From: JAUXIQ01 sp030620925 [NCBI: Nitrospinota bacterium]
GTDB lineage: Bacteria; JAUXIQ01
Assembly: GCA_030620925.1 (NCBI GenBank)
Contig: JAUXIQ010000147.1
Location: forward strand, 1 to 5,907
Direction of reading: 5' to 3'
Length of the DNA stretch: 5,907 nt
Positions 249 through 4,308 of the stretch are shown here, in pieces (the first letter of the stretch is position 1; each line of letters starts with the position of its first letter). The translations under genes and the position numbers were made by a program. The notes under the pieces were generated by a model. It was given only the letters and a program-made list of their open reading frames with translations. It searched no databases and had not been told where the DNA came from.

Positions 249-842
249 ATGGATAGTTATACTCAGAAGAGAGAACATATCGTCAAAACCGCCGCCAGGC
301 TGGTGCACGTCAACGGGTTCAACAACACCAGCATAGACGACGTCTTGAAAGAAGGCGGCGTGGGTAAGGGCCAGTTCTTCTACTACTTCAAGAACAAGGA
401 AGAGCTGGGATACGCCATCCTGGATAGCCAGTCGAAGTCCACCGCCGAGAGATTGTGGGATCCCGCCTTTAACAGCGACCTTGACCCCCTGGGCAAGATA
501 TACAGGTTGCTGGATAACGTGGTGAAAGTCCATCGGGAACGGGGATGTACCGGAGGATGCCCTATAGGCAGCATGGCCCTGGAGATGGGAGACATACATG
601 AGGGTTTCAGGAAAAAGACGGACGGAGTTTTCCGTTCCTGGGCCCGGAGGATAAAAAAGACTCTCCGTGAAGGGGTGAAAGACGGCCAGATAAGGGAAGA
701 TGTCAACGTCGATGAGCTGGCTGATTTTATTGTCGCCTCCATACAGGGGGCCATTCTGCTTTGCGTGGCCGGTAAGGATATAAGGGTGATGCGGAGATGT
801 TTCCGGAACCTTAAGAAACATCTGGAGTCTTTGCGGGTCTAG
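249..842 (+). CDS. TetR/AcrR-family transcriptional repressor with a CxxxC ligand-domain motif
   Basis: This 197-residue protein has the length and layout of a TetR regulator. An N-terminal three-helix DNA-binding domain (about residues 7-55) includes the recognition region TSIDDVLKEGGVGKGQFFYYF, followed by KNKEEL. The rest is a helical ligand-binding and dimerisation domain. Residues 100-107 read CTGGCPIG; a cysteine-bearing motif at this position is typical of the TetR subgroup that includes NemR- and AcuR-like regulators, some of which sense electrophiles or oxidants through cysteine. Redox or electrophile sensing is therefore plausible but unproven, and the ligand is unknown. The start is supported by AGAAGGA at 232-238, 10 nt before the ATG. 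Its promoter is covered by a palindrome, suggesting autorepression. It lies 145 bp upstream of, and on the same strand as, the FMN-barrel and selenoprotein genes, which it may also control. Confidence 0.93.
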   Translation: MDSYTQKREHIVKTAARLVHVNGFNNTSIDDVLKEGGVGKGQFFYYFKNKEELGYAILDSQSKSTAERLWDPAFNSDLDPLGKIYRLLDNVVKVHRERGCTGGCPIGSMALEMGDIHEGFRKKTDGVFRSWARRIKKTLREGVKDGQIREDVNVDELADFIVASIQGAILLCVAGKDIRVMRRCFRNLKKHLESLRV

Positions 843-972: not shown

Positions 973-990
973 AGAAGGAGATAAAACTTG
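973..990 (+). promoter_or_regulatory. ribosome binding site that fixes a TTG start
   Basis: AGAAGGAG (973-980) lies 7 nt before TTG at 988-990. In this frame there are stops at 961-963, 970-972 and 982-984, so translation cannot begin earlier. The first in-frame ATG (1006-1008) is 25 nt from the Shine-Dalgarno sequence, too far to use it. TTG is therefore the best start, giving an N-terminus MQYDELMETA that fits the family. Confidence 0.8.
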
Positions 991-1971
991 CAATATGATG
1001 AATTGATGGAAACGGCCCTTATGAAGATGGAAGAGAAGGGGGCGCTCAAGCGGTACACGGGTAAGGGAGCCGAGACCGGTTATGCCGGGAGATACAACAG
1101 AGAAATTTTCAAGGCCTTCGGCTTCAAGTTCAGGATGATAGATGCTGTAGCCGCCGATACATCCATGACGCTGTTCGGCAGACAGTTCAAGACCCCCGTT
1201 ATGTGCGCTGCCTTGTCAGGGATGACGGATATCACCGATGAGCCTTTAGCTAAAATAGCGAAAGGGGTTTCGGAAGCGGAATCCCTGATGTGGGTGGGTA
1301 TCACAAACGAGGAGCAATTCAGCAGTGTCCTTGCCACTGGAGCGCCCACGGTACGCATAGTAAAGCCCTTTGCGGATATGGAGAAGATGTATGGTGAAAT
1401 CAGGCAAGCCGAAGACGGAGGGGCGTTTGCCGTGGGCACGGATATAGACTTTTTCTTCGGTGGAAAGGTCGGGGAGAGGATGTTTGCCCCTGCCGCCATG
1501 GGTCCCAAGAATAGCGAAGAACTCAAGGAGCTCATCTCAGCCACCCGGTTACCCTTCATCTTGAAAGGGGTGCTCAGTGCGGAGGATGCTCGGCGGGCCG
1601 TCGATTTGGGGGCCGGAGGGATAGTGGTTTCCAATCACGGGGCGGCCATTATAGACTTCAGCGCCCATCCCCTGGAGGTGCTGCCCGAAATAAAAGAAGC
1701 AGTAGGGGATAAGATACCGGTGTTTGCGGATAGCGGGTTCTTGAGGGGTTCGGACATTGTTAAAGCGCTGGCCCTGGGGGCGGATGCCGTTTGTGTGGGT
1801 AAGGCTCTCATTATGGGACTGGCGGCCAATGAGAGCGATGGGGTCAGGGAAATGGTGGAGATATTGACCGAGGAAGTGCGCCGGATTATGTCTGTTACCG
1901 GATGTCCTGATCTATCCAGTGTTGATGAGTCTATCCTGGTGAGGAGAAATCTTTTCCTGCAGGAAGACTGA
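988..1971 (+). CDS. divergent FMN-dependent alpha-hydroxy-acid dehydrogenase-like protein (FMN_dh fold)
   Basis: This 327-residue TIM-barrel protein aligns along its length with the glycolate oxidase / lactate dehydrogenase (LldD) family. LFGRQFKTPVMCAALSGM (63-80) matches the early barrel strands. PFILKGVLSAEDARRAVDLGAGGIVVSNHG (189-218) contains the conserved Lys193 and the catalytic-type His217. PVFADSGFLRGSDIVKALALGADAV (244-268) matches the FMN-phosphate region. Several hallmarks are altered. The substrate-carboxylate Arg of the SNHGxR motif is Ala220. The DGGxR arginine is Leu252. The usual GR of the next loop is GK (271-272). No Tyr is seen where glycolate oxidase has its active-site QLY (here about 123-127, RIVKP). 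FMN binding is likely, but classical oxidation of 2-hydroxy acids is doubtful. It starts at TTG and is followed after 56 bp by the selenoprotein gene, with which it probably forms an operon. Other TIM-barrel FMN enzymes, such as type 2 IPP isomerase-like proteins, fit less well. The substrate is unknown. Confidence 0.85.
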   Translation: MQYDELMETALMKMEEKGALKRYTGKGAETGYAGRYNREIFKAFGFKFRMIDAVAADTSMTLFGRQFKTPVMCAALSGMTDITDEPLAKIAKGVSEAESLMWVGITNEEQFSSVLATGAPTVRIVKPFADMEKMYGEIRQAEDGGAFAVGTDIDFFFGGKVGERMFAPAAMGPKNSEELKELISATRLPFILKGVLSAEDARRAVDLGAGGIVVSNHGAAIIDFSAHPLEVLPEIKEAVGDKIPVFADSGFLRGSDIVKALALGADAVCVGKALIMGLAANESDGVREMVEILTEEVRRIMSVTGCPDLSSVDESILVRRNLFLQED

Positions 1972-2027
1972 ACCCGGAATTTAGGTCTTTTAACGCAGTT
2001 CAAACTTTATTAGAGGAGAACAGAAAG

Positions 2028-2885
2028 ATGATCGACGGATTTAAATTCTGTCCACCAGGGCTTCCCGACCGGCTTCAGCAGATGAAGTTCGTGGAGCATG
2101 AAGATATTCCCTGGGCACCCGTGAACAAGAAGATAGAAGACTGCAAGTTCGCTATCCTCTCCACCGCGGGTATCTCCATGAAAGGGGATGTTCCATTCGA
2201 TATGGAGCGCGAGTATAAGGAACCTACCTGGGGCGACCCGACTTTCAGGGTGATTCCAAAGGATGCCAAGCAGGCTGACCTTGAGGTAAATCATCTGCAC
2301 ATAAATACCAGAGATATCGAAAAGGACTTCAACTGCGCCTTCCCTCTCGACCGTTTCAAAGAGCTGGAAGAGCAGGGACGGATAGGCTCCTTCGCCGAGA
2401 ATAACTACTCAATAATGGGATACCTACCCACCCCTCATACCGGTGAGCTTATCAAAGGGACTGCTCCTGCAATAGCCGATAAGATGAAGGCGGATGGTGT
2501 GGATGCGGCGTTTATGGCCCCCGTCTGACCGCTCTGCAACCAGTCCGTGGGACTGGTTCAGAGGATAGTTGAGGAAGCAGGCATTCCCACCATATCCCTG
2601 ACTCTGCTGCCGTTCATCACCCGCAAGGTGAAGGTTCCCAGGGCTCTGGCGATTGAGTTCCCCTTCGGCCATCCTTTCGGGAAACCTTTCGACAATGAGC
2701 AGCAGCTCAGCATCATAAACGATGGTTTGAGGGAGCTGGAATCCATCCAAGAGGCGGGCACTATTCTGGACCTTCCTTATAAGTGGCCCGAAGAGGACTT
2801 CAAGAAGCAGGACTGGTGGCCGGAGGAGCACCCGCCCATAGTCAAGTTCATGCAGGAACAGCTAGCCAAGAAGAATAAGAAGTAA
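2028..2885 (+). CDS. selenoprotein of the GrdB/PrdB reductase family (Sec at an in-frame TGA)
   Basis: Read through the TGA at 2526-2528, this is one frame of 285 residues ending at TAA 2883-2885. Residues 41-51 (FAILSTAGISM), the NHLHINTRDIEKDFNCAFPLDRFKEL block (88-113) and the segment around the TGA match the Sec subunit of D-proline reductase (PrdB) and its relative GrdB of glycine, sarcosine and betaine reductases. The TGA is codon 167 and falls at the Sec position of those proteins, giving U167-P-L-C170, a UxxC redox pair, followed by GLVQRIVEEAGIPTISLT as in PrdB/GrdB. These enzymes reductively cleave substrates through a selenoether; the substrate here is unknown. AGAGGAG (2012-2018) precedes ATG 2028 by 9 nt. 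A SECIS-like hairpin follows the TGA. No pyruvoyl partner (PrdA/GrdE type) is adjacent; the neighbour is the FMN-barrel gene. No signal peptide is seen, so it is cytoplasmic. TGA is also a true stop in the neighbouring genes, so context-dependent decoding is required. The alternative is a nonsense mutation, which I consider unlikely. Confidence 0.88.
2526..2563 (+). promoter_or_regulatory. bacterial SECIS element with its Sec TGA codon
   Basis: Three nucleotides after the TGA (2526-2528), CTCTG (2532-2536) pairs with CAGAG (2559-2563), and AACCAGTCC (2538-2546) pairs with GGACTGGTT (2550-2558). This leaves one bulged C (2537) and a GUG apical loop (2547-2549). All 14 pairs are Watson-Crick. 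The apical loop begins 18 nt after the TGA and has G as its first base. This agrees with the known bacterial SECIS pattern of a hairpin directly downstream of the Sec codon with a G near the start of the apical loop. E. coli fdhF has a bulged U rather than C. The expected role is to recruit SelB with Sec-tRNA during translation. Confidence 0.85.
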
Positions 2886-2924: not shown

Positions 2925-3146
2925 ACTCCCCCCAAAACTTTTGTCATTGTCGATTGGTGCTTTCCCTCACTGACGTTCTGGATAATGTTTATTAGGTCTA
3001 TTCCTATTGGCGGTGTTCGGATTAGTTTACCCTGAGCGGCATCATACCCAAAAGATTCGGAGGGAATTTGCCCCGCGGAAGGCGGGGTTTTCAAAAGGGT
3101 TTCCTCAGTAGCATGGGGAAGATATTTTTATAAAAAAGTTTCCTCA
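2908..3146 (+). repeat. three dispersed copies of an AAAAGGGTTTCCTCA-type repeat in the 2886-3150 gap
   Basis: Related 15-17-bp segments occur at 2908-2924 (AAAAAGGGTTCCCTCAA), 3093-3107 (AAAAGGGTTTCCTCA) and 3132-3146 (AAAAAAGTTTCCTCA), all in the same orientation. The first is one arm of the hairpin at 2891-2924, and the last ends 5 bp before the acyl-CoA dehydrogenase stop codon. They look like remnants of a hairpin-type intergenic repeat. Nothing protein-coding is recognisable in the 265-bp gap. The segments 2965-2982 and 3024-3037 (the latter reads GCTCAGGGTAAACT on the - strand) vaguely resemble intergenic repeats seen in some environmental bacterial genomes, but this is an impression only. 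Confidence 0.5.
3071..3091 (+). terminator. short GC-rich hairpin followed by TTTT
   Basis: CCCCGC (3071-3076) pairs with GCGGGG (3082-3087) across a GGAAG loop, and TTTT (3088-3091) follows directly. This is the form of a small intrinsic terminator reading on the + strand. It would catch + strand transcripts passing the hairpin at 2891-2924 before they run antisense into the acyl-CoA dehydrogenase gene. The stem is short and the T-run brief, so efficiency is uncertain. Confidence 0.5.
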
Positions 3147-3150
3147 AACA

Positions 3151-4308
3151 TCAATAGGAGCGTGGCAGGCCCAACGATTCGGCAATGAAATTGCGGGCCA
3201 TGTCGTTACTCACCGGACTGAAAGTGCCCAGCCGCGCGTCGCGAAAGTAGCGCTGCATGTCCTGCTCCATAAGGTAGCCGTGCCCCCCCAATATGTGCAT
3301 CCCAGTGGAAGCGGACCTGAATGCGACCTCGGAAGCTATCATCTTGGCCATGGTGGCCTCGTAGCCGCAGGGTCGGCCGAGAGATTGCAGCCATGCCGCG
3401 CGGTATACCTGCCACCTGGCGCACTCCACCTCCGCGGCTATATTGGCGATGCGATGCTGGATGGACTGGAATTGGCCGATGGGTTTATCGAAAGCGTGTC
3501 GCTGTTTGGCGTATTCCAGCATGTCCTCTAAAGCCGCCTGGGCGATGCCTACTCCCATGGCCCCCAGGGTTATTCGCTCGTTGTTGAGGGTTTGCAGCAG
3601 GTGGTACCAGCCCTTGTCTATCTGCCCCAGGAGGTTCGTCTTGGGGACCTTCACATCTTGCAAGATGATATGGTTTATGCCAGATGCGCGCATGCCGAAC
3701 TGGTTCAGGCGCTCCACGGTGATGCCCGGGCTTTTCATGTCGGTGATGATCAGGGACAGCCCGTGAGATTTCTTGGGAATGGGCTGGCCCGTGCGGGCCA
3801 CGGTGACCATGAAGTCCGCTTCATGGGCCAGGGTGATAAACATCTTCTCCCCGTTGATTACGAAGTTATCCCCGTCATACTCCGCCCGGGTGGTGAGTGA
3901 AAGGACGTCGCTGCCGCCGCTGGCTTCCGTCAATCCCAGGGCGTAGAGTATCTCCCCTCTGGCCAGCCTGGGCAGATATTCCGCCTTCTGCTCGGGGCTT
4001 CCGAAATAGTCTATGGATTTACCCCCGAAGCACATGGATACCACGTAGGCCAGGGCGCCGGCGGTGAGTCCCCTCGCTAATTCCTCTATCAGAATGGTCA
4101 TATCCATTTCCGTGCCGCCGGTGCCGCCATACTCCTTGGGGAGAGGCAGACCCAGCCAGCCCATTTCCGCCATTCTATTCCACAGCTCGCGGGGGAATCG
4201 GCGTTGTTCGTCGCACTCCCGCGCATAAGACCTGGGGAACTCTTTTTCCAGAAGTCTCCGGACAGAATCCTTTAGCATCTGTTGTTCTTCGCTGAAATCG
4301 AAGTCCAT
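3151..4308 (-). CDS. acyl-CoA dehydrogenase (FAD-dependent)
   Basis: This 385-residue protein is full length for the family, which oxidises acyl-CoA thioesters to 2-enoyl-CoA and passes electrons to ETF. The N-terminal helical domain begins MDFDFSEEQQMLKDSVRRLL. The middle domain carries YALGLTEASGGSD (122-134), the FAD/substrate motif, and INGEKMFIT (151-159). The C-terminal domain carries QRHAFDKPIGQFQSIQHRIA (270-289) and GGHGYLMEQDMQRYFRDAR (341-359). At the usual medium-chain catalytic Glu position (YEGT) this protein has SPVS (364-367). Glu244 in LNNER lies where isovaleryl- and long-chain-type enzymes place their base, so it is the likely catalytic residue. The ending SPVSNDMARNFIAESLGLPRSY is, as I recall, shared by a distinct clade of anaerobe dehydrogenases. 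The ATG at 4308 is preceded by a GGGAGGG Shine-Dalgarno sequence. The gene is convergent with the selenoprotein unit and divergent from nadB. The substrate cannot be told from sequence. Confidence 0.93.
   Translation of the reverse strand: MDFDFSEEQQMLKDSVRRLLEKEFPRSYARECDEQRRFPRELWNRMAEMGWLGLPLPKEYGGTGGTEMDMTILIEELARGLTAGALAYVVSMCFGGKSIDYFGSPEQKAEYLPRLARGEILYALGLTEASGGSDVLSLTTRAEYDGDNFVINGEKMFITLAHEADFMVTVARTGQPIPKKSHGLSLIITDMKSPGITVERLNQFGMRASGINHIILQDVKVPKTNLLGQIDKGWYHLLQTLNNERITLGAMGVGIAQAALEDMLEYAKQRHAFDKPIGQFQSIQHRIANIAAEVECARWQVYRAAWLQSLGRPCGYEATMAKMIASEVAFRSASTGMHILGGHGYLMEQDMQRYFRDARLGTFSPVSNDMARNFIAESLGLPRSY

Follow-up and report, generated by a model that had tools for sequence, protein, structure and literature searches.

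Two open reading frames that share one frame and are parted by a single TGA raise the question of whether positions 2028-2885 of the window (the whole stretch of DNA analysed here, 5,907 nucleotides from a Nitrospinota bacterium) encode two truncated proteins or one selenoprotein, and, if the latter, whether that protein is the PrdB subunit of D-proline reductase or an enzyme of another kind. Our overall reading is that the product is a selenocysteine (Sec) enzyme made with a SECIS element and the genome's own Sec set, which would belong to a stand-alone subfamily and act as a selenol/thiol reductase. Judged from sequence, we put the probability of this reading at about 0.6.

The in-frame TGA and its decoding

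The gene and the elements that bear on its decoding are as follows.

2028..2885, + strand: PrdB-like selenoprotein gene, ATG 2028 to TAA 2883-2885, 285 codons via the TGA, motif UPLC
2012..2019, + strand: likely ribosome-binding site AGAGGAGA before ATG 2028, read directly in the sequence
2526..2528, + strand: TGA decoded as selenocysteine 167, on the strength of TGA in the homologue column (78/80; 14/17; 19/20)
2532..2563, + strand: SECIS-like hairpin, pairing 2532-2536/2559-2563 and 2538-2546/2550-2558, loop GUG 2547-2549
2540-2546/2550-2556, + strand: apical helix common to homologues, 7 pairs

The preliminary description had proposed one selenoprotein split by its Sec codon, and the reading of 2028-2885 agrees: the region is a single frame whose sole internal stop is TGA 2526-2528. 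Standard gene calling was expected to yield two truncated proteins, and the open reading frame list does report a 166-residue piece (2028-2528) and a 112-residue piece (2547-2885) with a GTG start. The read-through product has 285 residues, with U167 and C170 forming the pair in UPLC. Family similarity had been claimed on both sides of the TGA, and the alignment to TIGR04483 (residues 29-253) spans U167, while that to PF07355 covers residues 20-163 only and stops just short of it.

Named genomes were scanned with patterns from five Sec-form proteins, and the best 80 of 122 loci were kept. TGA occupies the Sec column in 78 of these 80 homologues, each of the 78 with Cys at +3, and Ser occupies it in the other two. 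A second set of 17 single-domain homologues has TGA in 14, Cys in one (L021, CVVC), Gly in one (L017, GGPLG) and Ser in one (L019, SATTG), and 20 further loci have TGA in 19 and Cys in one (L151, CELG). The three sets overlap (L011 is L077, and L012 is L116) and their counts are not additive. Cys or Sec had been predicted for homologues at residue 167, and the column is dominated by TGA in every set; homologues with neither residue, which had been named as evidence against a selenoprotein, do exist, but they are few (L017, L019, L092 and L093). Both active-site residues are lost in L017 and L019. In L092 and L093, from Desulfobacterales, the motif is SGLC, with Ser for Sec and the resolving Cys kept, and the host genomes have SelB. 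One of the 19 TGA loci, L144, reads UPLD, keeping Sec and replacing the resolving Cys with Asp.

The Sec-form rows of the best 80 of 122 loci divide into UPxC (73 of 78) and UGxC (5 of 78), and UPLC occurs exactly in 31 of the 80. As UPxC is the commonest form, UPLC is no special feature of this gene. Retention of TGA and of Cys at +3 across homologues makes a sequencing error not credible, and we rejected that explanation on the column TGA, the covarying hairpin and the fold z-score.

Folding of the 45-base segment that starts at the TGA gives -21.8 kcal/mol (z -3.85), a value that none of 200 shuffles equals. Across 93 aligned rows (82 distinct), the cells of the apical helix are paired at a rate of 83.1%, where shuffles average 70.9% and none of 500 reaches the observed rate; the covariation score of the helix is 0.367 against 0.204 shuffled and at most 0.210 for slid versions, and all seven pairs show changes on both sides. 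A compensatory example is TCC...GGA becoming ACC...GGT in L024 and L025. The count of further pair types in this helix showed no excess over shuffles, 189 of 500 of which reached the observed count. Of the 93 rows, 71 form six or more of the seven pairs and 22 form fewer.

Twelve rows of a UPxCC..V type, mostly from Dehalococcoidia (L065, L076, L079, L081, L085, L087, L089, L090, L091, L095, L097 and L106), have only one to three apical pairs; in most of them this 45-base segment adopts a different hairpin, possibly a shifted SECIS. In a hand-picked subset of 44 of the 93 rows, which omitted near-duplicates, the 12 Dehalococcoidia-type rows, the L049- and L053-type rows, L057, L061 and L070, apical pairing was 95.1% against 83.4% in shuffles and covariation 0.459 against 0.226, and RNAalifold recovered the apical helix unaided. 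The statistics to rely on are those for all 93 rows (82 distinct), which are lower than the 44-row values and still clear. The basal helix of the window hairpin is not general, the whole structure being 72.9% paired in the 44 rows. Additionally, 69 of 78 homologues have a more stable fold over the 55 bases that begin at the TGA than they have on average elsewhere in the gene (mean z -1.06), and for 39 the difference exceeds 1 s.d. A search of the window against Rfam gave no match up to E 1.

The source assembly (2.5 Mb in 445 contigs, 89.5% complete, 3.55% contamination) contains all four of selA, selB, selC and selD, the set for which a search had been proposed. The selB gene (415 bits) adjoins selA (611 bits), and tRNA-Sec is found at 78 bits and by ARAGORN as tRNA-SeC(tca). 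A second match to the tRNA-Sec model, at 47.4 bits, just exceeds the gathering score of 47. There are two selD genes, each with an in-frame TGA (GGGUACKI and GAGUACKI); these (L123, C134:3689-4615; L124, C51:87-1013) may be a genuine pair or may reflect the 3.55% contamination.

Among 47 other chosen carriers of the family, SelB was detected (E <= 1e-60) in 37 of 42 with Sec forms and three of five with non-Sec forms, too small a contrast for SelB distribution to carry weight alone. The two non-Sec carriers without SelB, G052 (100% complete) and G053 (99%), hold L017 and L019, the forms with both active-site residues lost. The Sec-form carriers without a SelB match are G149, G158, G160, G164 and G167, their completeness being unstated. 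One homologue on a Methanothrix sp. contig (L048) clusters closely with a row from Deltaproteobacteria, and the host genome has no SelB match; the tree position of L048 and the missing SelB together make a mis-binned contig likely. Another lies on a contig assigned to Klebsiella pneumoniae (L112), and that assembly may be mislabelled.

A true stop, whether in a decaying gene or between two separate proteins, would fit the in-frame position of the TGA and the GTG-start frame behind it, but we consider its chances negligible given TGA in the same column across many phyla, a covarying hairpin 3' of it in most rows and Sec machinery in the same genome. Thus, 2028-2885 almost certainly encodes a selenoprotein, in which the SECIS-like hairpin after UGA 2526-2528, together with SelA, SelB, tRNA-Sec and SelD, would place Sec at residue 167.

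A PrdB-like protein and its apparently missing partner

The relationship to PrdB and GrdB proposed at the outset is supported by homology that runs across the TGA and by membership of PF07355. The PF07355 (GRDB family) match reaches 35.7 bits, above the gathering cut-off of 22, and covers model positions 207-344 of 347 only. The best NCBIfam match is TIGR04483, PrdB, at E 4.5e-49 and 167 bits, below the cut-off of 300. Eight relatives score 113-190 bits on that model, and two proteins annotated prdB score 407 and 400. A zinc-finger model matched at E 0.0067, below its own cut-off; clear matches are to PrdB and GrdB models only.

Relative to GrdB, GrdF and GrdH (PF07355, TIGR01917/01918), the protein is homologous to the C-terminal half and has its Sec in the same column, so that the TGA does fall at the PrdB/GrdB Sec position with a UxxC pair, as had been claimed. 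It lacks the N-terminal half of GrdB, the TIGR01918 alignment being restricted to model positions 218-421 of 431, and it lacks the third Cys of UxxCxxC (residue 173 is Ser). The motifs cited in the preliminary description proved correct: three of three PrdB have UGTC, and two GrdB (L022 and L023) have UGTCTRC and UGTCARC.

The protein and PrdB are both single-domain proteins with UxxC, and identity is 35-37% to the 20 plasmid-collection matches listed, most of them annotated prdB. The family has 36 positions that are conserved in 85% or more of 44 rows, and three true PrdB carry the identical residue at 26 of these. These shared positions include D70, H89, D100, N102, P106, G131, R179, E182, T188, R205 and G218. 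In contrast, P165 and P168 of the family are replaced by A and G in PrdB, the motif here is UPLC against UGTC, and the protein is indeed longer than PrdB, as had been stated, at 285 residues against 241 in two annotated PrdB.

A tree of 103 rows separates three true PrdB, two GrdB and L027 from the other 97 rows, a split of moderate support only (85/83), and places the 2028-2885 protein on the opposite side from PrdB. There it branches deeply and on its own, at a weakly supported position (80/43), with no more than 45% identity to any tree row over the compared columns, with single pairwise matches of up to 48%. Because the fork is weak and the tree midpoint-rooted, its nearest kin are not fixed by the tree. 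Three longer forms of 381-409 residues (L015, L020 and L028) carry extra C-terminal sequence and form a separate subclade.

The partner subunits of the known reductases, GrdE and PrdA, form a pyruvoyl group from cysteine, according to the titles of the cited references. The PF09338 profile, which detects PrdA and GrdE in four controls (W01, W02, G035 and G072), found no match in the source genome, where at 89.5% completeness a missing PF09338 gene could be missing sequence. Neither did it find one in 37 of the 47 other chosen carriers (17 of 21 and 20 of 26 in two groups), or in 32 of the 42 with Sec forms, the remaining five of the 47 carrying non-Sec forms. A match is present in ten of the 47 (G047, G094, G147, G148, G159, G160, G163, G166, G174 and G175). 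No PrdA- or GrdE-like gene lies in the flanks (up to 6 kb) of the best 80 of 122 homologue loci, and the same search detected these genes in control loci. Searches of the source genome for GrdA, with no positive control detected, and for PrdA, run without a positive control, each gave zero matches. Thus a pyruvoyl partner for the protein seems to be absent, and the enzyme probably acts alone, without a pyruvoyl subunit.

These results bear directly on the possibility that 2028-2885 encodes PrdB as part of a true D-proline reductase. The top NCBIfam match and the 35-37% identity to proteins mostly annotated prdB speak for it. They are outweighed by the score of 167 bits where the cut-off is 300 and two true PrdB reach 407 and 400, by the UPLC motif, by the empty PF09338 search of the genome (to which the uncontrolled PrdA search adds its own blank), and by the flanks of 80 homologues, which hold no PrdA-like gene although PrdA sits beside prdB in control loci. 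We rejected this identity on the TIGR04483 score, the lack of PF09338 and the lack of a PrdA-like flanking gene; it is very improbable, and we are confident that the product is not a D-proline reductase. The protein instead appears to belong to a stand-alone PrdB-like subfamily, mostly with U-[PG]-x-C. The earlier proposal of a distinct subfamily therefore stands insofar as the protein fails the PrdB tests, and falls short in that the kind is not new and UPLC is not unique to the gene.

Neighbouring genes, distribution and fold

Four further genes occupy the window.

249..842, + strand: TetR-family regulator (PF00440 and PF16925), upstream of the selenoprotein gene and on the same strand
988..1971, + strand: FMN-dependent alpha-hydroxy-acid dehydrogenase-like gene (PF01070, 236 bits), TTG start as listed
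3151-4308, - strand: acyl-CoA dehydrogenase, taken as unrelated by position
4584 to window end: L-aspartate oxidase nadB, taken as unrelated by position

Between the end of the FMN-dehydrogenase-like gene (1971) and the ATG of the selenoprotein gene (2028) lie 56 bases, and the former is a possible operon partner at this locus. The TetR-family protein is AcuR-like, with a score below the AcuR cut-off, and from its position is a possible regulator of the pair. A conserved operon of the two genes was rejected, as the FMN-dehydrogenase-like gene had no tblastn match in any other homologue locus examined and is found in the window only. Aligned with a solved L-lactate oxidase, the encoded protein keeps the histidine of SNHG and reads SNHGAAII where the oxidase has SNHGARQL, so that the Arg is replaced. 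This Arg binds the substrate carboxylate; with it gone, the protein is perhaps something other than a typical 2-hydroxyacid oxidase. Downstream, 6 bases past the selenoprotein stop, a terminator-like inverted repeat (2891-2924) has 15 pairs and a 4-base loop, and stretches like AAAGGGTTTCCTCA are found again near 3094-3148.

Genes flanking the homologues were called by a simple longest-ORF rule. An MDMPI_N-SCP2 protein lies directly upstream (12-123 bp) in nine of the best 80 of 122 homologue loci; MDMPI/DinB proteins use low-molecular-weight thiols. Poribacteria homologues are flanked on one or both sides by Gfo/Idh/MocA oxidoreductases, and in three Dehalococcoidia a D-2-hydroxyacid dehydrogenase follows 1-15 bp downstream. 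An MFS transporter lies 15-33 bp upstream in five loci, a flavoprotein upstream in three and a putative cyclase upstream in two. Because neighbours vary among subfamilies and the FMN-dehydrogenase occurs at this locus only, no single pathway is pointed to.

Homologues at E <= 1e-20 occur in 37 of 386 genomes, the source genome included, and in 32 of 333 of high quality. Carriers include Nitrospinota, Poribacteria and Chloroflexota, which are not known as amino-acid fermenters. Viral contigs gave three pattern matches, none of them a relative, in a single-protein query that reaches close relatives only.

The predicted fold is confident (pLDDT 97.2). Sequence searches of the PDB gave no match at E <= 0.2, and a profile match at 9.5e-4, to 32 positions of a de novo designed homodimer, was taken as chance. 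Foldseek found no PDB match at E <= 0.001, and the best VIA-align result (Z 8.8) was an allulose transcriptional regulator, followed by Lac repressors, with 138 of 285 residues aligned, which is uninformative. The lack of a clear solved-structure match does not imply a new fold.

Possible chemistry and earlier annotations

If the protein works as a reductase in its own right, two kinds of chemistry come into question. In one, the selenolate of Sec167 would attack a small substrate at an electrophilic centre, C170 would free the product and leave a selenenyl-sulfide, and a cellular thiol would reset it, with the PrdB-shared D70, H89, D100, R179, E182 and R205 shaping the active site. With amine activation by a pyruvoyl group out of reach, the leaving group would have to come with the substrate itself. 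In the other, again without a pyruvoyl partner, the enzyme would carry out a plain selenol/thiol redox exchange. Attack on carbon rather than plain redox is a tentative choice that we would not yet favour. Still more speculative are an alpha-substituted carboxylate, for example a 2-hydroxy or 2-halo acid, as the first-guess substrate class, and a role for the upstream FMN-dehydrogenase-like protein, which would act on that same metabolite or on the one that follows it.

The closest precedent for selenolate attack without a Schiff base is FarB, a GrdB-like selenoprotein of Cloacibacillus. The authors propose, in the accessible part of their report, that its Sec attacks fluoroacetate at the C-F bond, in a substrate for which a Schiff base is impossible. 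This proposed attack on carbon is where the likeness lies. FarB differs in working with a partner, FarE, and in having a dedicated farACEB operon; its assignment came from transcriptomics and comparison, and the authors suggest an amine as the substrate that it may prefer.

A general thiol/selenol oxidoreductase acting on disulfides or peroxides, with UxxC as a redox pair only and no C-X cleavage, is somewhat unlikely, and it is the rival that survives best. UxxC is widespread as a thiol-redox motif, and neighbours that differ by subfamily, including MDMPI_N proteins in one clade, would suit such a role. A table of the Global Ocean Sampling (GOS) survey, in its accessible part, also places 'Proline reductase PrdB' with homologues of thiol-based oxidoreductases or Trx-fold proteins. 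However, the clear sequence matches here are only to PrdB and GrdB models, the many conserved residues outside UxxC that are common to PrdB suggest a substrate pocket, and the clade-specific neighbours suggest specific substrates.

The most far-reaching version of our stand-alone reading is that these PrdB-like proteins form a separate selenoenzyme class, in which Sec cuts an alpha C-X bond without a pyruvoyl group and with clade-specific partners, and that the marine 'PrdB' is unrelated to proline. X would be OH-derived, a halogen, an amine or a thioether, and the partner here would be the FMN-dehydrogenase-like protein. We regard this version as unlikely in its entirety.

Proteins of this kind have been counted before. 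In the accessible text of the respective reports, marine surveys have since 2005 recorded family relatives under the name 'proline reductase PrdB', with 42 selenoprotein sequences (UxxC) in the Sargasso Sea and 235 (UxxC, pfam07355), plus 110 Cys homologues, in GOS. Likewise as far as accessible, a later survey assigns 6.4% of 4324 selenoprotein genes to 'proline reductase', an earlier one lists such selenoproteins in Anaeromyxobacter and a Geobacter, and reviews of 2022 and 2026 place D-proline reductase under TIGR04483 with no split. The accessible GOS text contains no occurrence of 'PrdA', and no PrdA check or subfamily split.

The marine sequences resemble the present protein in UxxC and, for GOS, in pfam07355, and they differ in that GOS counts 110 Cys homologues whereas Cys forms are rare in our homologue sets. 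We infer that the marine 'PrdB' may be this stand-alone subfamily. No description of such a subfamily appeared among the literature matches listed, in a search that covered subscription papers thinly and had bioRxiv outside its range. Thus, what was known is a PF07355 UxxC kind of selenoprotein, and what appears new is the stand-alone subfamily and the deep branch formed by the 2028-2885 protein.

Ordinary gene calling cuts such selenoprotein genes in two. If the marine 'proline reductase' sequences, which surveys count among the prominent selenoproteins of the sea, do belong here, their name is wrong, and they would represent a widespread selenium-dependent activity that is as yet uncharacterised.
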